DNA of 63,359 nucleotides from Bacteroidota bacterium. GTDB lineage: Bacteria > Bacteroidota > Bacteroidia > Flavobacteriales > JADGDT01. Shown in pieces: positions 8,476 to 63,359 of the stretch (its first letter is position 1; each line of letters starts with the position of its first letter). The DNA lies in the NCBI GenBank assembly GCA_039714315.1, contig JBDLJM010000004.1, positions 1 to 63,359 on the forward strand. Reading direction: 5' to 3'. Under the pieces are notes generated by a model. The model ran no database searches and was not told where the DNA came from. It worked only from the letters and a program-made list of their open reading frames with translations. A program made the position numbers and the translations under genes.

Positions 8476-8500
8476 TAGTGTATGAAATACACTATATTTA
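8476..8500 (+). promoter_or_regulatory. Operator-like inverted repeat overlapping a -7 box, upstream of the sugar transporter
   Basis: A perfect 7-5-7 inverted repeat, TAGTGTATGAAATACACTA (8476-8494), overlaps a Bacteroidota -7-like box TATATTTA (8493-8500). Placement over the promoter is what a repressor site would show. If transcription starts near 8507, translation must begin at 8521 rather than 8482. The binding protein is unknown. Confidence 0.55.
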
Positions 8501-8520
8501 CGGCCATAAAAAATGAGGAA

Positions 8521-9990
8521 ATGATTAAAGCACAACAAAAACTAAATAATGCTTTTTATGCATTATTGTCATTACCGGCCACTGCAATGGGATTTGCATT
8601 GTCTGTTCAAATTGCAGCCTTAAGCTGGATTTTATCTACAAAATACGGATTCGACATACACGAAGTGGGAATTGTATGGGCAGCTGGTCCCTTAGCGGGA
8701 ATTATTGCCCAACCAATTGTAGGAGCAATTTCTGATAACGTTTGGTTTCTAAACGGACGAAGAAGACCATTTATTCTTATTGGTGGTTTTTTGGCTGCAT
8801 TAATGCTTTTGGCTCTTCCAAACATTGATGTAATAGGCCACTCTTTAGGTTTTGACGGTGCTACCCTTGGAATTGCTATCGCTGTTGCTATTACCCTGGA
8901 TTTATCGATCAATATTTCGTTTAATCCAACGAGATCAATAATTGCCGATGTAACACCCGAAGGTAACAAAAGAACCAACGGCTATACATGGATGCAAACA
9001 ATATCAGGAACATTCGGAGTATTGGCATATGCGATCGGTGCTTATTTCAATAATTACTTTTTAATATATTTTGGGGTTATACTTGTGCTTTTATTCTCTC
9101 TGATCCCTCCGTTCTTTATCGAAGAGCCAAAAGAGATACAGAGCCACAACGATGTTACGGACAAAGAGAACACTAATACAAAAACTGATTACAAAGAAAT
9201 ATTTGAATCCATTTTACCCTTATTCGGATTCCTACTATATGGAGTTTATGTGATTATTAAACAACTTACTGACTTTAATGTTTCCGGAAACATAGTAGAA
9301 TACTTTGCAATTGGTTTAACCGTCATTCTTGGATTGAAGATAATTACAGGCGGCAGGAATAATGAAAATGATAAAAATGAATTTCAAAAAATACTGCTTG
9401 CTCATGCTTTCACATGGTGGGGAGTACAAAGTATGTTTGTTTACATGTTTGCCTACGTAAAAAGTAATATTCTGGGACATAGCCCCGATGCCGAACTGGC
9501 AACCGAAGCAAACAACCAAATAGGAGTTGTAATATCAATTTCTTTTTTGGTCCTAAATCTTGTTGGTGCAATTTTACCCGCACTGGTATTAGGACCCTTA
9601 GCAAAAAAGTACAGTCGTGTGAAAGTACACATGATATCAATAGCAATAATGGCCATTGGCTACGCAGGAATACTTTTCTTTGGCGACGGGCATAAATTTA
9701 TACTTTACGTAATGATGGCTGTAGTAGGTATTGGATGGGCATCAACCATATCTCTTCCTTTTGCAATTATGTCGGAAAGAGTAGATCAGGCTAAAATGGG
9801 ACTTTTCATGGGCCTCTTTAATCTTTCAGTGGTTTTACCACAGCTTGTTGCAAGTTTTAAAATGGGAGAAATTGTAAAACATGCCGAAAATAAAAATGTA
9901 CTGTTCATTATTACAACAGTTACATTGACAATTTCTGCTGTTTTATGGATTTTTGTAAAAGAACCACTATCTAAAAAAGCTGAAGCATAA
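8521..9990 (+). CDS. SLC45-type MFS sugar:proton symporter
   Basis: A major-facilitator transporter with about 12 membrane segments. The GRRRP motif (residues 92-96 counted from an ATG at 8482) and SDNVWFLNGRRRPFIL are typical of the SLC45/sucrose-maltose symporter branch. It probably imports a disaccharide or maltooligosaccharide with protons across the inner membrane. I prefer the start at 8521 (MIKAQQKLNNAFY, 489 residues), because an ATG at 8482 would put the N-terminus over an operator-like palindrome and a -7 box; the longer 502-residue form remains possible. A terminator at 10011 closes the gene as a single unit. The pullulanase at 11721 is a plausible functional partner. Confidence 0.87.
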   Translation: MIKAQQKLNNAFYALLSLPATAMGFALSVQIAALSWILSTKYGFDIHEVGIVWAAGPLAGIIAQPIVGAISDNVWFLNGRRRPFILIGGFLAALMLLALPNIDVIGHSLGFDGATLGIAIAVAITLDLSINISFNPTRSIIADVTPEGNKRTNGYTWMQTISGTFGVLAYAIGAYFNNYFLIYFGVILVLLFSLIPPFFIEEPKEIQSHNDVTDKENTNTKTDYKEIFESILPLFGFLLYGVYVIIKQLTDFNVSGNIVEYFAIGLTVILGLKIITGGRNNENDKNEFQKILLAHAFTWWGVQSMFVYMFAYVKSNILGHSPDAELATEANNQIGVVISISFLVLNLVGAILPALVLGPLAKKYSRVKVHMISIAIMAIGYAGILFFGDGHKFILYVMMAVVGIGWASTISLPFAIMSERVDQAKMGLFMGLFNLSVVLPQLVASFKMGEIVKHAENKNVLFIITTVTLTISAVLWIFVKEPLSKKAEA

Positions 9991-57033: not shown

Positions 57034-58518
57034 TTATTGAATTGTACCTGTACCGTTAACAAAATCAAGAGTAACAACCTGACCTGTTGACCCAGCTACA
57101 GCAGCCTGGTCATCACCGGCACCTCTGTACTCAATCACTCCGTCAATCACATTAAATTCAGCTTGCCACCAGTCTACTGCATTTCCATCAGCATTAGTTA
57201 AAGTAGCAGCAGCAACATGCATACGTACATTAGCATCAGCAACTAGTGAAGGTGAAGTAATCACCTTAGCAGAATTGTCAACTGTAAATTTAGTAGCTTC
57301 CTGAGCAGCATCCCATCCACCGAAAGCATCACCAATACCGTGAATATTTGGAGCATTAATTTCAATAGTTTCAGTTTCAAGGTTTACAACTATTGAATAG
57401 TAACCAGCTTCTGCAACTGTACCATTGTCTCCTCCTTTTCCATAAACACCATCAGTTTCACCAGCAGCAAGATCAATACCAAATGAAGGACCCCAATCTA
57501 ATTCAGGTGAGAATTTAAATCCTGGATCAGTTGCCTCAGGATCAACCCACTGAATAGAATAAAATAAATGAGGATTACTATGTACAGGAATCATTTCGAT
57601 ATATTGTCCATCTGCCCAGCCCCATGCGCCAGAACCAACAGAACCACCTGTCATATATAATACATCAGGGAATTCTGGTGGAGGTAATTCACCTGCATCT
57701 TCAGTTGTGATAGTTAAACCTGCGATACCTTTTTCACCACTTACCCAGTTGAAAGAGAAGTTTAATAACTGGTCTGTTACTATTTCAATATCACCACCAT
57801 CTGCAGTTAAAGCATCAACAGTACCACCGTAAGAAAGTACCGGACGAACATGATCATCTGCAAATCCGGCTGCATCAGCTTCATTCCATGCAACATCTTC
57901 AAGAACAAATTTCCATGCTGTGTTAAATCTAATTTTAAATTTAGCTCTAAGCTCAACAGAAGCAGCTTCAAAAGTTGCAGCATCGGCACTACCTGAAGTT
58001 AATTCAGCTTTGTCTCCTGTAACATTTATTTCAATGTTATTGATTTTCATCACCCAAAACTTAGACGTATTTTCATCAGTCATGATATAGTACAATCCTT
58101 CAGAAGGAACTGTATAAGTGTCTGTTGCTCCCGCTGCGAGAGTACCAGCTACATAATCAAAAGCCTCACCTGCTTCTTCTTCCTGAGTTACTTGAGTAAC
58201 ATCTGTTGCTCCAATTGAAGATTCATTCCCATCAACTACTTTGGATAATGCTATTTCACCAGCCGAAAGGTAGTGAATACCATACATCATACCGGCTCTT
58301 CCAACTTTAGTAGCAAAATCACTACTTGGCTCCACCATTTGAGGAGTATCTATAGCTAAAGTTTTATCTCCTGTTGCAGAACCTTTTATATAGTATCCGT
58401 CTGCCAAATATTCTATTGGATCATCGCCCGGCTCATCTTTACTACATGAACTATTTAAGGATAAAATAGACCCAAACAACACTAAGAATAGTGTTTTAAT
58501 AAAATTAATATTCCTCAT
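57034..58518 (-). CDS. susE: SusE/SusF-like outer-membrane glycan-binding lipoprotein
   Basis: A 494-residue lipoprotein. Cys25 in NSSC is followed by SKDEPGDD, an acidic export signal. The architecture is an N-terminal beta domain followed by repeated starch-binding-like modules (LYMTGGSVGSGAWGWADGQYIEM, FYSIQWVDPEATDPGFKFSPE, AGYYSIVVNLETETIEI), as in SusE and SusF of Bacteroides. Such proteins hold maltooligosaccharides at the surface for SusCD. It is third in the operon susC-susD-susE. The alpha-glucan assignment rests on these modules and the presence of pullulanase elsewhere in the window. Confidence 0.82.
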   Translation of the reverse strand: MRNINFIKTLFLVLFGSILSLNSSCSKDEPGDDPIEYLADGYYIKGSATGDKTLAIDTPQMVEPSSDFATKVGRAGMMYGIHYLSAGEIALSKVVDGNESSIGATDVTQVTQEEEAGEAFDYVAGTLAAGATDTYTVPSEGLYYIMTDENTSKFWVMKINNIEINVTGDKAELTSGSADAATFEAASVELRAKFKIRFNTAWKFVLEDVAWNEADAAGFADDHVRPVLSYGGTVDALTADGGDIEIVTDQLLNFSFNWVSGEKGIAGLTITTEDAGELPPPEFPDVLYMTGGSVGSGAWGWADGQYIEMIPVHSNPHLFYSIQWVDPEATDPGFKFSPELDWGPSFGIDLAAGETDGVYGKGGDNGTVAEAGYYSIVVNLETETIEINAPNIHGIGDAFGGWDAAQEATKFTVDNSAKVITSPSLVADANVRMHVAAATLTNADGNAVDWWQAEFNVIDGVIEYRGAGDDQAAVAGSTGQVVTLDFVNGTGTIQ

Positions 58519-58567: not shown

Positions 58568-60052
58568 TTATTTTCCCAAATTTGGATTAGCGTCTATAGC
58601 CCATTGGGGTATTGGGTAAGTCAAATTTGAACCGTCAGCAACAGCATCCTTTTCCCACCAGGCTTCACCAAACTTACCAAATCTGATTAAATCCTGACGG
58701 TTGTGACCTTCCCAGAACATCTCATGTTTACGTTCCAATAAAACATCATCCAAAGTTGCTCCACTTAAATCTGCCAAACCTGCACGACTTCTTGTCATAT
58801 TCATCTCTGCATCACCACTTTTACCCTGACGAACAGCAGCCTCTGCCTTCATCAATAGGACATCGGCATATCTAAAAATTGGATAATCATTACTTAGATC
58901 TTGCATTGCGCCAACTTTCACCTCAAATTTATTAGCTCTTACTCCTGAATCATAAGCCTCTTTTGCAGAAAAACTCTGATCCATATGTAATGCAGGTATA
59001 TCAACTGTAAACACAAGTGGTTCATTTGAACGCTCACTAATTAATACTGTTGTTCCGTCAATAGCGTACTGCTTCCCCACTAAAAAGTACTTCTCCTTAC
59101 GTAAATCAGCATCGTCAAAACTATTATAATAGTCTGCCATTACAGCAAATCCATTCCAAGGACCGGTTGCCATATCAAATGTTGCCTGACTCTGATAGTG
59201 AAGCGTTCTCATATGAAGGTTGAAATTCGTAAAGTTAATTTCATCATATGGTATAGTGAAAATATTCTCTACAGAGTTATCATTATTAGTAACAAATGGA
59301 GCTGATACCCCTGCCTCTAGTGAATACATTCCTCCATCAATTACAGCCTGAGCTGCAGCCTCAGCTTTTGCCCATTCCGGAGTACCAGTATACACCTCAG
59401 CATTAAGATACATCTTCGCCAATATTGTATAGGCTGTATATTTATTGACAACAGTTTTAGATGATGTTTCAGGAAGAAAATCTATATTATCTTCCAGCTC
59501 TTTCACTACCTCTGCAAACACTAATGCTCTATCCATTTTCTCTGGAGATGGATCTGCTTCTGAAAACGAAGTAACATAAGGAACACCTCCATAATTATCT
59601 ATTAATAAATAGTAATAGTATGCTCTCATTACTTTCATTTGGGCAATTATTGGGACTACATCAGGATTATCGCCAGATGGTTCCAAGGTTTCAATTACCT
59701 GATTAGCCTCATTAACACCTCCATAAAAGAAATCCCACATCTGACTAACAGATTCAGTCTGATTATTCCAGTTATGCAAATGTAAATCTCGCCACTTACC
59801 TCCATCATCCCAATCGGTATGACGTGTTGGTGCACAAACCGCATCACCGGTAACTTCTTGTGCAAACCACCATCCACCATTATCTGTCATCCTCTGTAAT
59901 TGTTTGTACACAGGAGCCGGAAGAAGTTTTACCTGACCAGCATTCTCTGGAAATTTTTCAACCGGAATTTGGTTATACAGGTCTACATCTAACTTTGTAC
60001 AAGACAAAGTCATAAATCCTGTTGCTATTATTGATAATATTATTCTTTTCAT
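58568..60052 (-). CDS. susD: SusD/RagB-family outer-membrane glycan-binding lipoprotein
   Basis: A 494-residue lipoprotein with Cys18 in TLSC. The helical TPR-like SusD core is recognised by the N-terminal NQIPVEKFPENAG, the middle KVMRAYYYYLLIDNYGGVPYVT and the C-terminal FRYADVLLMKAEAAVRQG and ERKHEMFWEGHNRQDLIRFG, all of which are standard. It forms the lid over the SusC channel and captures the oligosaccharide. It follows susC with 9 bp between the coding regions, hence one mRNA. Confidence 0.93.
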   Translation of the reverse strand: MKRIILSIIATGFMTLSCTKLDVDLYNQIPVEKFPENAGQVKLLPAPVYKQLQRMTDNGGWWFAQEVTGDAVCAPTRHTDWDDGGKWRDLHLHNWNNQTESVSQMWDFFYGGVNEANQVIETLEPSGDNPDVVPIIAQMKVMRAYYYYLLIDNYGGVPYVTSFSEADPSPEKMDRALVFAEVVKELEDNIDFLPETSSKTVVNKYTAYTILAKMYLNAEVYTGTPEWAKAEAAAQAVIDGGMYSLEAGVSAPFVTNNDNSVENIFTIPYDEINFTNFNLHMRTLHYQSQATFDMATGPWNGFAVMADYYNSFDDADLRKEKYFLVGKQYAIDGTTVLISERSNEPLVFTVDIPALHMDQSFSAKEAYDSGVRANKFEVKVGAMQDLSNDYPIFRYADVLLMKAEAAVRQGKSGDAEMNMTRSRAGLADLSGATLDDVLLERKHEMFWEGHNRQDLIRFGKFGEAWWEKDAVADGSNLTYPIPQWAIDANPNLGK

Positions 60053-60061
60053 CTTGTATAA

Positions 60062-63049
60062 TTAAAATCCAACATTAAGTCCTAAAGTAAATGATCTTGT
60101 CTTTGGATATACATTATATTGGTCTATCCCTTTATTATCATTATCTCCATAATCCATCTCAGGATCTATTCCAGAATATCCACTTAGAACAAATACATTA
60201 TTTACATTAAAATACAATCTTGCCTTACGTAACCAATTTACATTATCTGTATCGAAATTATAACCTAGTGATATATTTTCTAAACGAATAAATGAACCAT
60301 CCTCTATATAATAATCAGAATATATTGGAGGATCTGATAAAACTCCGGTCAAATCCTTGGCATCTGTCAATGCATTGTTAGTTGGTAATATAGAAGGGTT
60401 GCCAAATATCATTTTTGTAACATTTAACACTTCAGCACCATAAACTGCTCTAAAAACAAGATTCATATCAAAGTTTTTATACAGTGTGATATAATTCGAC
60501 CATCCTATCTCAAAATCAGGTAATGCACTTCCCAAAACTTGTCTTTGATCATCCCCTTGTTTCAACATTCGCTGAAGTTCATCGTAATTTTTCAATTTTC
60601 CTTGCTTGTCGTAGAACAACCACTCTCCATTTGTTGACATACCGGCATATTTATATCCGTAAAATGTTCCAAATGACATACCTGGAGCAACACGCTGCGA
60701 AGCTACACCTACCATACCCGGTCCTTGTATCCACCCGGTTTCTTTGAAATCTAAATTAAATTTCTCATCTCCTAATGCAATTATTTCCTGTCTGTTAGCT
60801 GAAAAAGAAAAAGATGTTTTCCAGTTAAGATTTTCATTATCTATAACAAAAGCTTCAAGGAACAATTCTATTCCTGTATTATTTACCTCACCTCCATTAT
60901 ACCATATATACTGATGCTTGTATGGAGGAACAGGTACTCTGTATTCTCCCAACAAATCATATGTACGTTTATTATAATACTCTATTGATCCGGATATTCG
61001 ACTGTTTAGAAAAGCAAAATCTAAACCAATATTAAGTTCGGCATTTGACTCCCATTGTAAATTTGGATTTGCATTATTTGTTAAACCAAAAACAGGAATA
61101 GGTTTACCTGTTTCAGGATCGATTGCAGTTCCCTGAATTCCAACATATGGTACTGAAAGATAATTTCCAATTTCCTGATTTCCGGTATAACCATAACCAG
61201 CACGTAATTTCAATTGATCTATAAATTCTGAATCACTTAGGAAATCCTCTTTAGAAAGAACCCAACCTACAGATCCCGATGGAAAAATTCCCCATTTTTT
61301 ATTTGTTCCAAATCTTGAAGAACCATCTCGACGCAATGTTGCTGTTACATAATATTTCGAGTTATAATTATATGCTGCACGTCCAAAAAATGATATCAAT
61401 CTGTTCTCTTCTTTAAATGAAGTTATACCACCTAAGCCCACGATTGATAGAGCTTCTAAATTATTAGACTCTACATAGTCCGACATAGGACCTGTTCCAG
61501 AGGCTTTAAACCCGGTTTTAGTATCCTCCTGAAATGAATAACCTACAACAGCATTCAAATTATGAACATTGGAAAAAGAATTATTATAAGAAAGTGTTGA
61601 TTCTATTAATTTAGACTCAAAGTTATCATATTCTCTTTTTCCCTCTCCTCCTGTGGTTGTTGCTTCGCTATAGCTTGGTACAAAAAAGAATGATTCATGA
61701 TCATTTCTAACATATCCCATATTAACTCCGGCCTTTAGACCTTCAATAATTTCAAAATCAGCTTTAAAGTTTCCATTTATTCTTTTTGCATCACGTTCAT
61801 TTTGAATATCATCTATCAAAGCTACAGGGTTTGAGTAATTGAACCTGTCAGAACGATTATAAGAACCATCTTCGTTATAAATTGGATCGGTTGGATTATG
61901 TTGAATCATTTGGAAAATTACGTCCTGAAATCCATTTCCATCATATTTTACATAATTATTATGTTCAATAGTAGCAGAAAGATTACCACTTAAGGTAAGA
62001 CGGTTATCCAAAGACTTCTGAGTCATGTTTATACGAGCAATATCACGAGATTTACTAGATCCATTTATAACACCTTTAAAGTCTAAATGAGATATAGAAG
62101 CACGGTAATTAAAATCTTCAGCTCCACCAGAAAAAGCCAAGTTATACGACTGTGAATGCCCTGTACGGAAAACTTCATCCTGCCAATCCGTATCTGCACC
62201 TCCGTCAGAGAAATTTTTACCTGTATCTGATGCATATTCTCTCAGTTCAGATGCACTAAGTAAATCGAATCGTTTTGCAACAACATCCATTGAATTGTAG
62301 GTATTGAAATCAACAGTTGTAACGCCATCTTTATTTCCTTTCTTAGTTTCTATCAGGATAACACCATTCGCTCCTCTTGACCCATAAATAGCTGCTGAAG
62401 ATGCATCTTTCAATACGTTGAATGATTCTATATCTTCAGGAGCAATAGAAGTTGGATCAGCTCCGGGAACCCCGTCAATTACATACAATGGATCTGTATT
62501 AGAGCCAAATCCTGAAGACCCTCTAATTTTAATCGAAAATCCTCCATTTGGATCCCCTCCTTTTTTTGAAATTTGAACCCCTGGAGTTTTACCTTGCAAA
62601 CCCTGAATAGGATCTGTCAATACTCCAGTATTAAGTTCAGAAGCTTTTATACTAGCTACCGCACCAGTTTTATCTTCTTTTTTCTGAACACCATAACCAA
62701 CAACAACAACATCTTCCAAAACAGCTGCATCAGGCTCCAGGCTTGGACTCCAAACCTGATCTGAACCAGAACTTAATGTTATAGTTGATTCTTTGTACCC
62801 CATAAAAGAAGCACTTAACGTAAACTGACCATCTTGAACTTGATCATCTGTAACATCGATGGAATAGTTTCCATCGAAATCTGTTGTTGTACCATTTGTA
62901 GTACCGACAACAAGTACTGACGCCCCGGGAAGGGGTTCCCCGTTCTCATCATTTACTACACCTGATATATTTTGTGCTATCAGATTAGTAAATGACAACA
63001 GAGTAAACGCCACCATTAGCATGGTAGCCTTCAAGTAAACTTTCCTCAT
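60062..63049 (-). CDS. susC: SusC/RagA-family TonB-linked outer-membrane transporter
   Basis: A 995-residue TonB-dependent transporter. The signal peptide (1-25) is followed by a carboxypeptidase-regulatory-like domain (about 27-110, ISGVVNDENGEPLPGASVLV), the TonB box region EDVVVVGYGVQKKED, a plug with IRGSSGFGSNTDPLYVIDGVPG and ASSAAIYGSRGANGVI, and a barrel to the C-terminus. The length is normal. With SusD it forms the bin-like uptake complex. It is first of susC-susD-susE, with a promoter at 63083 and complex upstream repeats. Confidence 0.95.
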   Translation of the reverse strand: MRKVYLKATMLMVAFTLLSFTNLIAQNISGVVNDENGEPLPGASVLVVGTTNGTTTDFDGNYSIDVTDDQVQDGQFTLSASFMGYKESTITLSSGSDQVWSPSLEPDAAVLEDVVVVGYGVQKKEDKTGAVASIKASELNTGVLTDPIQGLQGKTPGVQISKKGGDPNGGFSIKIRGSSGFGSNTDPLYVIDGVPGADPTSIAPEDIESFNVLKDASSAAIYGSRGANGVILIETKKGNKDGVTTVDFNTYNSMDVVAKRFDLLSASELREYASDTGKNFSDGGADTDWQDEVFRTGHSQSYNLAFSGGAEDFNYRASISHLDFKGVINGSSKSRDIARINMTQKSLDNRLTLSGNLSATIEHNNYVKYDGNGFQDVIFQMIQHNPTDPIYNEDGSYNRSDRFNYSNPVALIDDIQNERDAKRINGNFKADFEIIEGLKAGVNMGYVRNDHESFFFVPSYSEATTTGGEGKREYDNFESKLIESTLSYNNSFSNVHNLNAVVGYSFQEDTKTGFKASGTGPMSDYVESNNLEALSIVGLGGITSFKEENRLISFFGRAAYNYNSKYYVTATLRRDGSSRFGTNKKWGIFPSGSVGWVLSKEDFLSDSEFIDQLKLRAGYGYTGNQEIGNYLSVPYVGIQGTAIDPETGKPIPVFGLTNNANPNLQWESNAELNIGLDFAFLNSRISGSIEYYNKRTYDLLGEYRVPVPPYKHQYIWYNGGEVNNTGIELFLEAFVIDNENLNWKTSFSFSANRQEIIALGDEKFNLDFKETGWIQGPGMVGVASQRVAPGMSFGTFYGYKYAGMSTNGEWLFYDKQGKLKNYDELQRMLKQGDDQRQVLGSALPDFEIGWSNYITLYKNFDMNLVFRAVYGAEVLNVTKMIFGNPSILPTNNALTDAKDLTGVLSDPPIYSDYYIEDGSFIRLENISLGYNFDTDNVNWLRKARLYFNVNNVFVLSGYSGIDPEMDYGDNDNKGIDQYNVYPKTRSFTLGLNVGF

Positions 63050-63112: not shown

Positions 63113-63119
63113 AAAAAAA

Positions 63120-63136
63120 ATGTACAAAATACACTT
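63120..63136. repeat. Box A, copy 1, just upstream of the susC promoter
   Basis: ATGTACAAAATACACTT, matching 15 of 17 bases of the copy at 63343-63359. Its location next to the -33 element fits an activator or repressor site. A third partial ATACACTT occurs at 63185-63192. Confidence 0.6.
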
Positions 63137-63221
63137 AGTCATTTTTCCTGATCAACATCCTCTATTCTCGTCTGAGTGTCCCTGATACACTTGACTTTAC
63201 AAGAATATGACAATGACACTG

Positions 63222-63272
63222 TTTTTGTTAAAATTCAATTTAGAATGATTCTAAATTGAATTTTAACAAAAA
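63222..63272. repeat. Perfect 51-bp palindrome upstream of susC
   Basis: Two 25-bp arms (63222-63246 and 63248-63272) are exact reverse complements about a single central G. About 18% GC. Neither strand continues with a U tract beyond the stem, so it is not a typical terminator. It lies 173 bp before the susC start. Confidence 0.9.
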
Positions 63273-63284: not shown

Positions 63285-63342
63285 TGAGTTTCATCCATTA
63301 TTTCATGCTATTCAACCACTTAACACTGTCGTTCGTCAGTAG

Positions 63343-63359
63343 ATGTACTTAATACACTT
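63343..63359. repeat. Box A, copy 2, at the window edge
   Basis: ATGTACTTAATACACTT, the second copy of box A, ending at the last base of the window. The order A then B, read toward susC, is the same as in copy 1. Confidence 0.6.

Follow-up and report, generated by a model that had tools for sequence, protein, structure and literature searches.

The question raised by this locus is why a long and perfect palindrome should lie upstream of a susC-susD-susE/F-like operon encoded on the minus strand. The window analyzed here, a stretch of 63,359 nt, comprises contig C4 in full, one of 273 contigs in a draft MAG, and ends 87 nt past the palindrome, which reads TTTTTGTTAAAATTCAATTTAGAAT G ATTCTAAATTGAATTTTAACAAAAA (63222-63272). 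The coordinates of the features discussed are collected in Table 1. The initial annotation had described a perfect 51-bp palindrome with 25-bp arms around one central base, and pairing of the arms confirmed this description. Its statement that such a length is beyond chance also holds. When the window was simulated five times with a Markov model, the longest arms of any perfect inverted repeat (loop of at most 12) were 9 to 12 nt, compared to the 25 nt observed. The 25-nt arms form the longest perfect inverted repeat not only of the window (runner-up, 15) but also of 820 kb of its own genome (runner-up, 22), and the single-strand fold energy of the palindrome as DNA is -20.9 kcal/mol (z = -10.3).

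TABLE 1 Palindrome, candidate regulatory elements, and operon genes in the window
Feature	Position	Strand	Remarks
Perfect palindrome	63222-63272	.	25 + 1 + 25; arms 100% complementary
Left arm; right arm	63222-63246; 63248-63272		25 nt each; 1-nt loop
Candidate Fur box ATTTAGAATGATTCTAAAT	63238-63256	.	Palindrome center; 18/19 to Riemerella box
17-nt core	63239-63255		Exact match to Fur-box core
Outer TTAAAAT	63228-63234	+	12 nt outside; differs at 1 base from Fur half-site TTAGAAT; mirrored at 63260-63266
AAGTGTA-N5-TACACTT dyad, copy 1	63118-63136	-	1 mismatch; just upstream of predicted susC -33 element
Dyad, copy 2	63174-63192	-	2 mismatches
Dyad, copy 3	63341-63359	-	2 mismatches; at contig end
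Predicted susC promoter P1	63083-63112	-	TTTG 63112-63109, N18, TAAATTTG 63090-63083
Weak -7-like element TATTCTTG	63200-63207	-	1 mismatch to TAnnTTTG
susC-like TonB-dependent receptor	60062-63049	-	PF07715, PF00593, PF13715
susD-like lipoprotein	58568-60052	-	PF07980
susE/susF-like protein	57034-58518	-	PF16411

Two simple identities for the palindrome are disfavored. No U tract follows it on either strand, and its arm is T-first and A-last; both features speak against an intrinsic terminator, already discounted by the initial annotation. The same annotation had suggested looking for the arm sequence elsewhere in the genome and in relatives, and this search showed the palindrome to be single copy. 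With up to three mismatches allowed, the arm found only itself and three 3-mismatch strays, and the palindrome was absent from 84,980 genomes scanned for its pattern, a set that possibly does not include the own genome. Because it is single copy and absent from that scan, it does not belong to a REP/MITE-type family of mobile palindromes, and the proposal that it is the scar of a mobile element, for which no relatives were found, was abandoned. Rfam returned sub-threshold hairpin matches, none above the gathering score.

A survey of 820 kb from the own genome and ~310 kb from two congeners (~1.13 Mb) found 77 perfect inverted repeats whose arms were 13 nt or longer, the longest being 31+31 in the congener G002, so length alone is not extraordinary in this genus. 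Most of these repeats look like terminators because of their position and their U tracts: 62 of the 77 lie no more than 100 nt past a stop codon, and a U tract is present in 48 of these 62 and absent from 14. The palindrome differs from this majority in being long, U-less, and located in the upstream region of a gene, a combination that is extraordinary for the genus. The 62-bp palindrome of G002 (L111:8668-8729) is perfect, has no spacer, and lies between convergent genes, and further long perfect inverted repeats without a U tract are found at gene ends (L079:9300, L084:13737, and L090:14104). Spacer-less perfect palindromes of 28 to 32 bp that contain GC-rich segments and are REP-like in appearance occur at L082:1502-1533, L086:4494-4525, and L087:6391-6418.

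A possible identity is suggested by the center of the palindrome, where only the central base separates the 19-bp sequence from the Flavobacteriales Fur box ATTTAGAATTATTCTAAAT. This is the Fur box of Riemerella anatipestifer, which belongs to the same order. There, EMSA showed that Fur binds promoters bearing the box, and the motif is located upstream of genes for TonB-dependent receptors and heme uptake (PMC5609570, PMC10986502). The sites are intergenic in both organisms. The palindrome had been described as beyond common operators; this was not borne out, because its 19-bp center is a near-exact Fur box of the order. Conservation of the motif points the same way. Across 198 genomes of the order, the core TTTAGAATNATTCTAAA has 26 exact occurrences, compared to 0 for the reversed control, and all 20 of the sites inspected were intergenic. 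The motif is often found ahead of genes with iron, heme, or Fe-S functions. The genes that these inspected exact cores precede or flank include hemA (4 genomes), feoB, sufS, and nqrA, as well as genes for an HmuY-like protein with a heme ABC binding protein, a thioredoxin-reductase-like flavoprotein (4), and SusC/RagA (4).

The exact core (TTTAGAATGATTCTAAA) is present in one copy in the own genome. When up to two mismatches were allowed, 12 core sites were found in 820 kb compared to 2.2 expected from a Markov background, and in a half-site permutation test, the real motif ranked first of 150, the next permutation reaching 11. Neighbors of these sites include sufB, two FeMo-cofactor-family genes, folE (GTP cyclohydrolase), and genes for RseC, a multiheme cytochrome c, a molybdopterin oxidoreductase, and a Crp/Fnr regulator. 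The congener G001 retains the site at folE and at a FeMo-cofactor gene. In the surveyed stretches of G001 and G002, the core was not enriched (1 seen versus 1.7 expected), and a looser, ICE-type pattern with one mismatch was not above the control in most relatives. A Fur-family protein is encoded in the own genome (L212:1715-2152, PF01475, E = 2.6e-28), an assignment at the family level that fits Fur or Zur/PerR. The ICE box of Irr, an alpha-proteobacterial protein of the Fur family with heme and Fe-S targets, is TTTAGAA-N3-TTCTAAA; the window core presumably fits this consensus letter for letter, although Irr comes from a phylum other than that of the window. At L289:852-1562, a regulator of the Crp/Fnr family is encoded whose N terminus bears an FNR-like Cys-X2-Cys-X5-Cys motif, and a degenerate Fur-box-like site lies 44 nt upstream of it (L289:1590).

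We favor, with moderate confidence, the reading that the palindrome is an iron-responsive Fur operator whose dyad symmetry extends far past the usual 19 bp. What survives of the initial interpretation is that the palindrome is real, beyond chance, no U-tract terminator, and probably regulatory; what does not is its separation from common operators and its origin as a mobile-element scar.

The genomic setting fits this reading less readily. susCDE looks like a starch system and not an iron system, which counts against Fur. A distance of 188 nt separates the box from the susC start, and one of about 160 nt from the predicted transcription start, compared to at most ~100 nt from the start codon for the Riemerella boxes (PMC5609570), although the latter is a tendency in one species and not a strict rule. 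The window box further differs from its Riemerella counterparts in being nested in a 51-bp perfect palindrome. P1 was predicted from the Bacteroidota -33/-7 promoter consensus, TTTG / TAnnTTTG (PMC7366714). Judged by the same elements, the weak -7-like TATTCTTG could mark a second, hypothetical promoter, P2, and would put its -33 region inside a palindrome arm. Copies of TTTTAGGAAAGT raise the question of an ancient promoter duplication; of 2000 shuffles each, 11 matched their score when the operators were left out and 47 when they were included.

A distal position is not confined to the window. Four SusC/RagA genes from a different family of the order (L324, L325, L327, and L328) have the exact core 210 to 220 nt upstream and thus share with the window the 17-nt core and a similar distance. 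However, their receptors are only 27 to 31% identical to the window SusC, their arm sequences are unlike the window's, and in three of them the arms are just 9 long. The fourth, L328, resembles the window in having extended perfect arms (20+1+20). This site (L328:1489-1529, genome G085) is a 41-bp perfect palindrome on a Fur-box core, 220 nt upstream of its SusC/RagA gene. Among closer homologs, the palindrome was absent upstream of the SusC relatives examined at 53 to 57% identity, several of which have LacI-type operators upstream, and it was not shared by the other surveyed SusC genes. The orthologous susC region was not found in two congeners. An unrelated 16-bp inverted repeat lies upstream of the SusC gene on contig C20 of the own genome (G000).

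The outer arms call for a separate explanation. At the 20 other exact boxes, perfect arms are 8 to 13 nt long, L328 excepted, so the box needs no outer arms. By our own estimate, with a chance of ~0.33 per bp, the probability of an extension of the L328 size among 20 sites is near 1e-4. The outer TTAAAAT repeats may be extra Fur half-sites, judging from their one-mismatch resemblance to TTAGAAT, and L328 likewise has TTAAAAT 13 nt outside its central half-site. Inspection of the arms by eye revealed no further overlapping full Fur boxes, only 1-mismatch half-sites. Additional Fur contacts and template-switch perfecting of the dyad fit the arms equally well and cannot be told apart.

The latter process also underlies the first alternative, in which the palindrome is a by-product of mutation. 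On this view, a short dyad underwent template switching, which lengthened its arms and continues to perfect them, and the outer palindrome, perhaps even the core, is without function. For the arms alone, this explanation is as good as the Fur operator. Template switching can, in a single step, generate perfect stems as well as maintain them (PMC8794818), unrelated long perfect inverted repeats are common in the genus, and the palindrome sequence is unique, its arms being shared by none of the SusC relatives examined. However, the center matches a conserved operator exactly, and an independent extended palindrome is present on the same core before another SusC/RagA gene (L328), so as an account of the whole palindrome we consider a by-product unlikely. 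Less probable still is an RNA 3'-end hairpin, terminator-like or for processing, of a gene that lies beyond the contig end and runs in the susC direction. The last 87 nt have stops in all three minus-strand frames, and a gene could therefore end within them; the many surveyed repeats just past stop codons, 14 of them U-less, provide a precedent. The polarity of the arms and the missing U tract argue against such a hairpin, and so does the putative operator copy between the palindrome and the contig end, because of which this stretch looks regulatory. In addition, the exact Fur-box center would be a coincidence.

A supercoiling-dependent cruciform bound by HU-type proteins, as proposed for Escherichia coli hupA and the Porphyromonas capsule locus, would make use of the perfect AT-rich arms, the 1-nt loop, and the stable predicted fold, and it has a precedent in Bacteroidota (PMC3969353, PMC8757827). 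At that locus in Porphyromonas gingivalis, an imperfect 77-bp inverted repeat with a long loop and an antisense RNA were described, and like the palindrome, the repeat lies in the upstream or leader region of an operon; unlike the palindrome, it has no known Fur box. For a cruciform, as for a processed RNA hairpin, the sole positive support is the pairing itself, and we regard it as very improbable since the structure is not conserved in relatives and conservation lies in the 17- to 19-bp core, not the arms. An assembly artefact, either a fold-back or a chimeric contig tip, must be weighed in such a fragmented draft so close to a contig end. For instance, C82 of this assembly starts with 97 GC-rich nucleotides (0.60 GC) that are probably chimeric, after which its sequence is identical to the final 98 nt of C89; contig tips about k long can therefore be erroneous. 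Yet a 97-nt bad tip of C4 would reach inward only to 63263, short of the inner 31 bp of the palindrome (63232-63262), and there is no GC shift at the C4 end. The tip holds another local dyad copy and TTTTAGGAAAGT, and the center is a real motif. The fold-back, which the initial annotation had itself raised, is unlikely because both flanks stop pairing sharply after 25 nt, whereas a fold-back would run to the contig end. Taken as a whole, an artefact has very little probability. No end overlap with a neighboring contig was found for C4, and two candidate neighbors could not be placed there: the LacI gene near the C44 end, which sits beside a probable kduI, and the alpha-amylase gene at the C82 start, which adjoins C89.

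If the palindrome is indeed a Fur operator, iron-loaded Fur would bind the central box and block transcription starting near the palindrome, either from P2 as a distal susC promoter or from the promoter of a divergent gene located past the contig end. This block would be lifted when iron is limiting, and a sugar regulator would act alongside at the three AAGTGTA-N5-TACACTT sites. The outer arms may give further Fur dimers a foothold through the half-site-like TTAAAAT repeats; alternatively, template switching may have symmetrized an operator that was already palindromic. This would mean that in this lineage, iron as well as sugar metabolism gates an operon for outer-membrane starch uptake, and the Fur boxes located far upstream of SusC/RagA genes would suggest the same link in other families of the order. 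It would also provide a concrete case in which the dyad of an operator has expanded to a long perfect palindrome, making selection versus template switching testable. A bolder proposal, which we put forward as speculation and think rather unlikely, is that there is a class of super-extended symmetric Fur operators ~190 to 220 nt upstream of SusC/RagA genes, each occupied by several Fur dimers, at which iron status and a glycolysis/starch regulator of the NrtR type together set polysaccharide uptake.

The sugar side of this scheme comes from the distribution of the AAGTGTA-N5-TACACTT dyad. In the own genome, it precedes or adjoins pfkA, gapA, and the genes for pyruvate kinase, fructose-bisphosphate aldolase, and phosphoglycerate mutase, and it is also found at those for ROK glucokinase, 4-alpha-glucanotransferase, and alpha-amylase; the loci besides the window are L199, L207 to L212, and L225. 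One copy lies between pfkA and a divergent gene for a Nudix regulator of the NrtR/AraR type. The dyad is conserved in the congener G001, with 19 sites compared to 0 for the control, among them sites at pfkA, gapA, glucokinase, and aldolase genes. Because the dyad is common to glycolysis and starch genes, susCDE is probably part of a glycolysis/starch regulon, to which the palindrome would add iron control. A further copy in the window (TAGTGTATGAAATACACTA, 8476-8494) lies at the start of an MFS transporter open reading frame (8482-9990), and since the annotated start overlaps the dyad, the true start is probably downstream.
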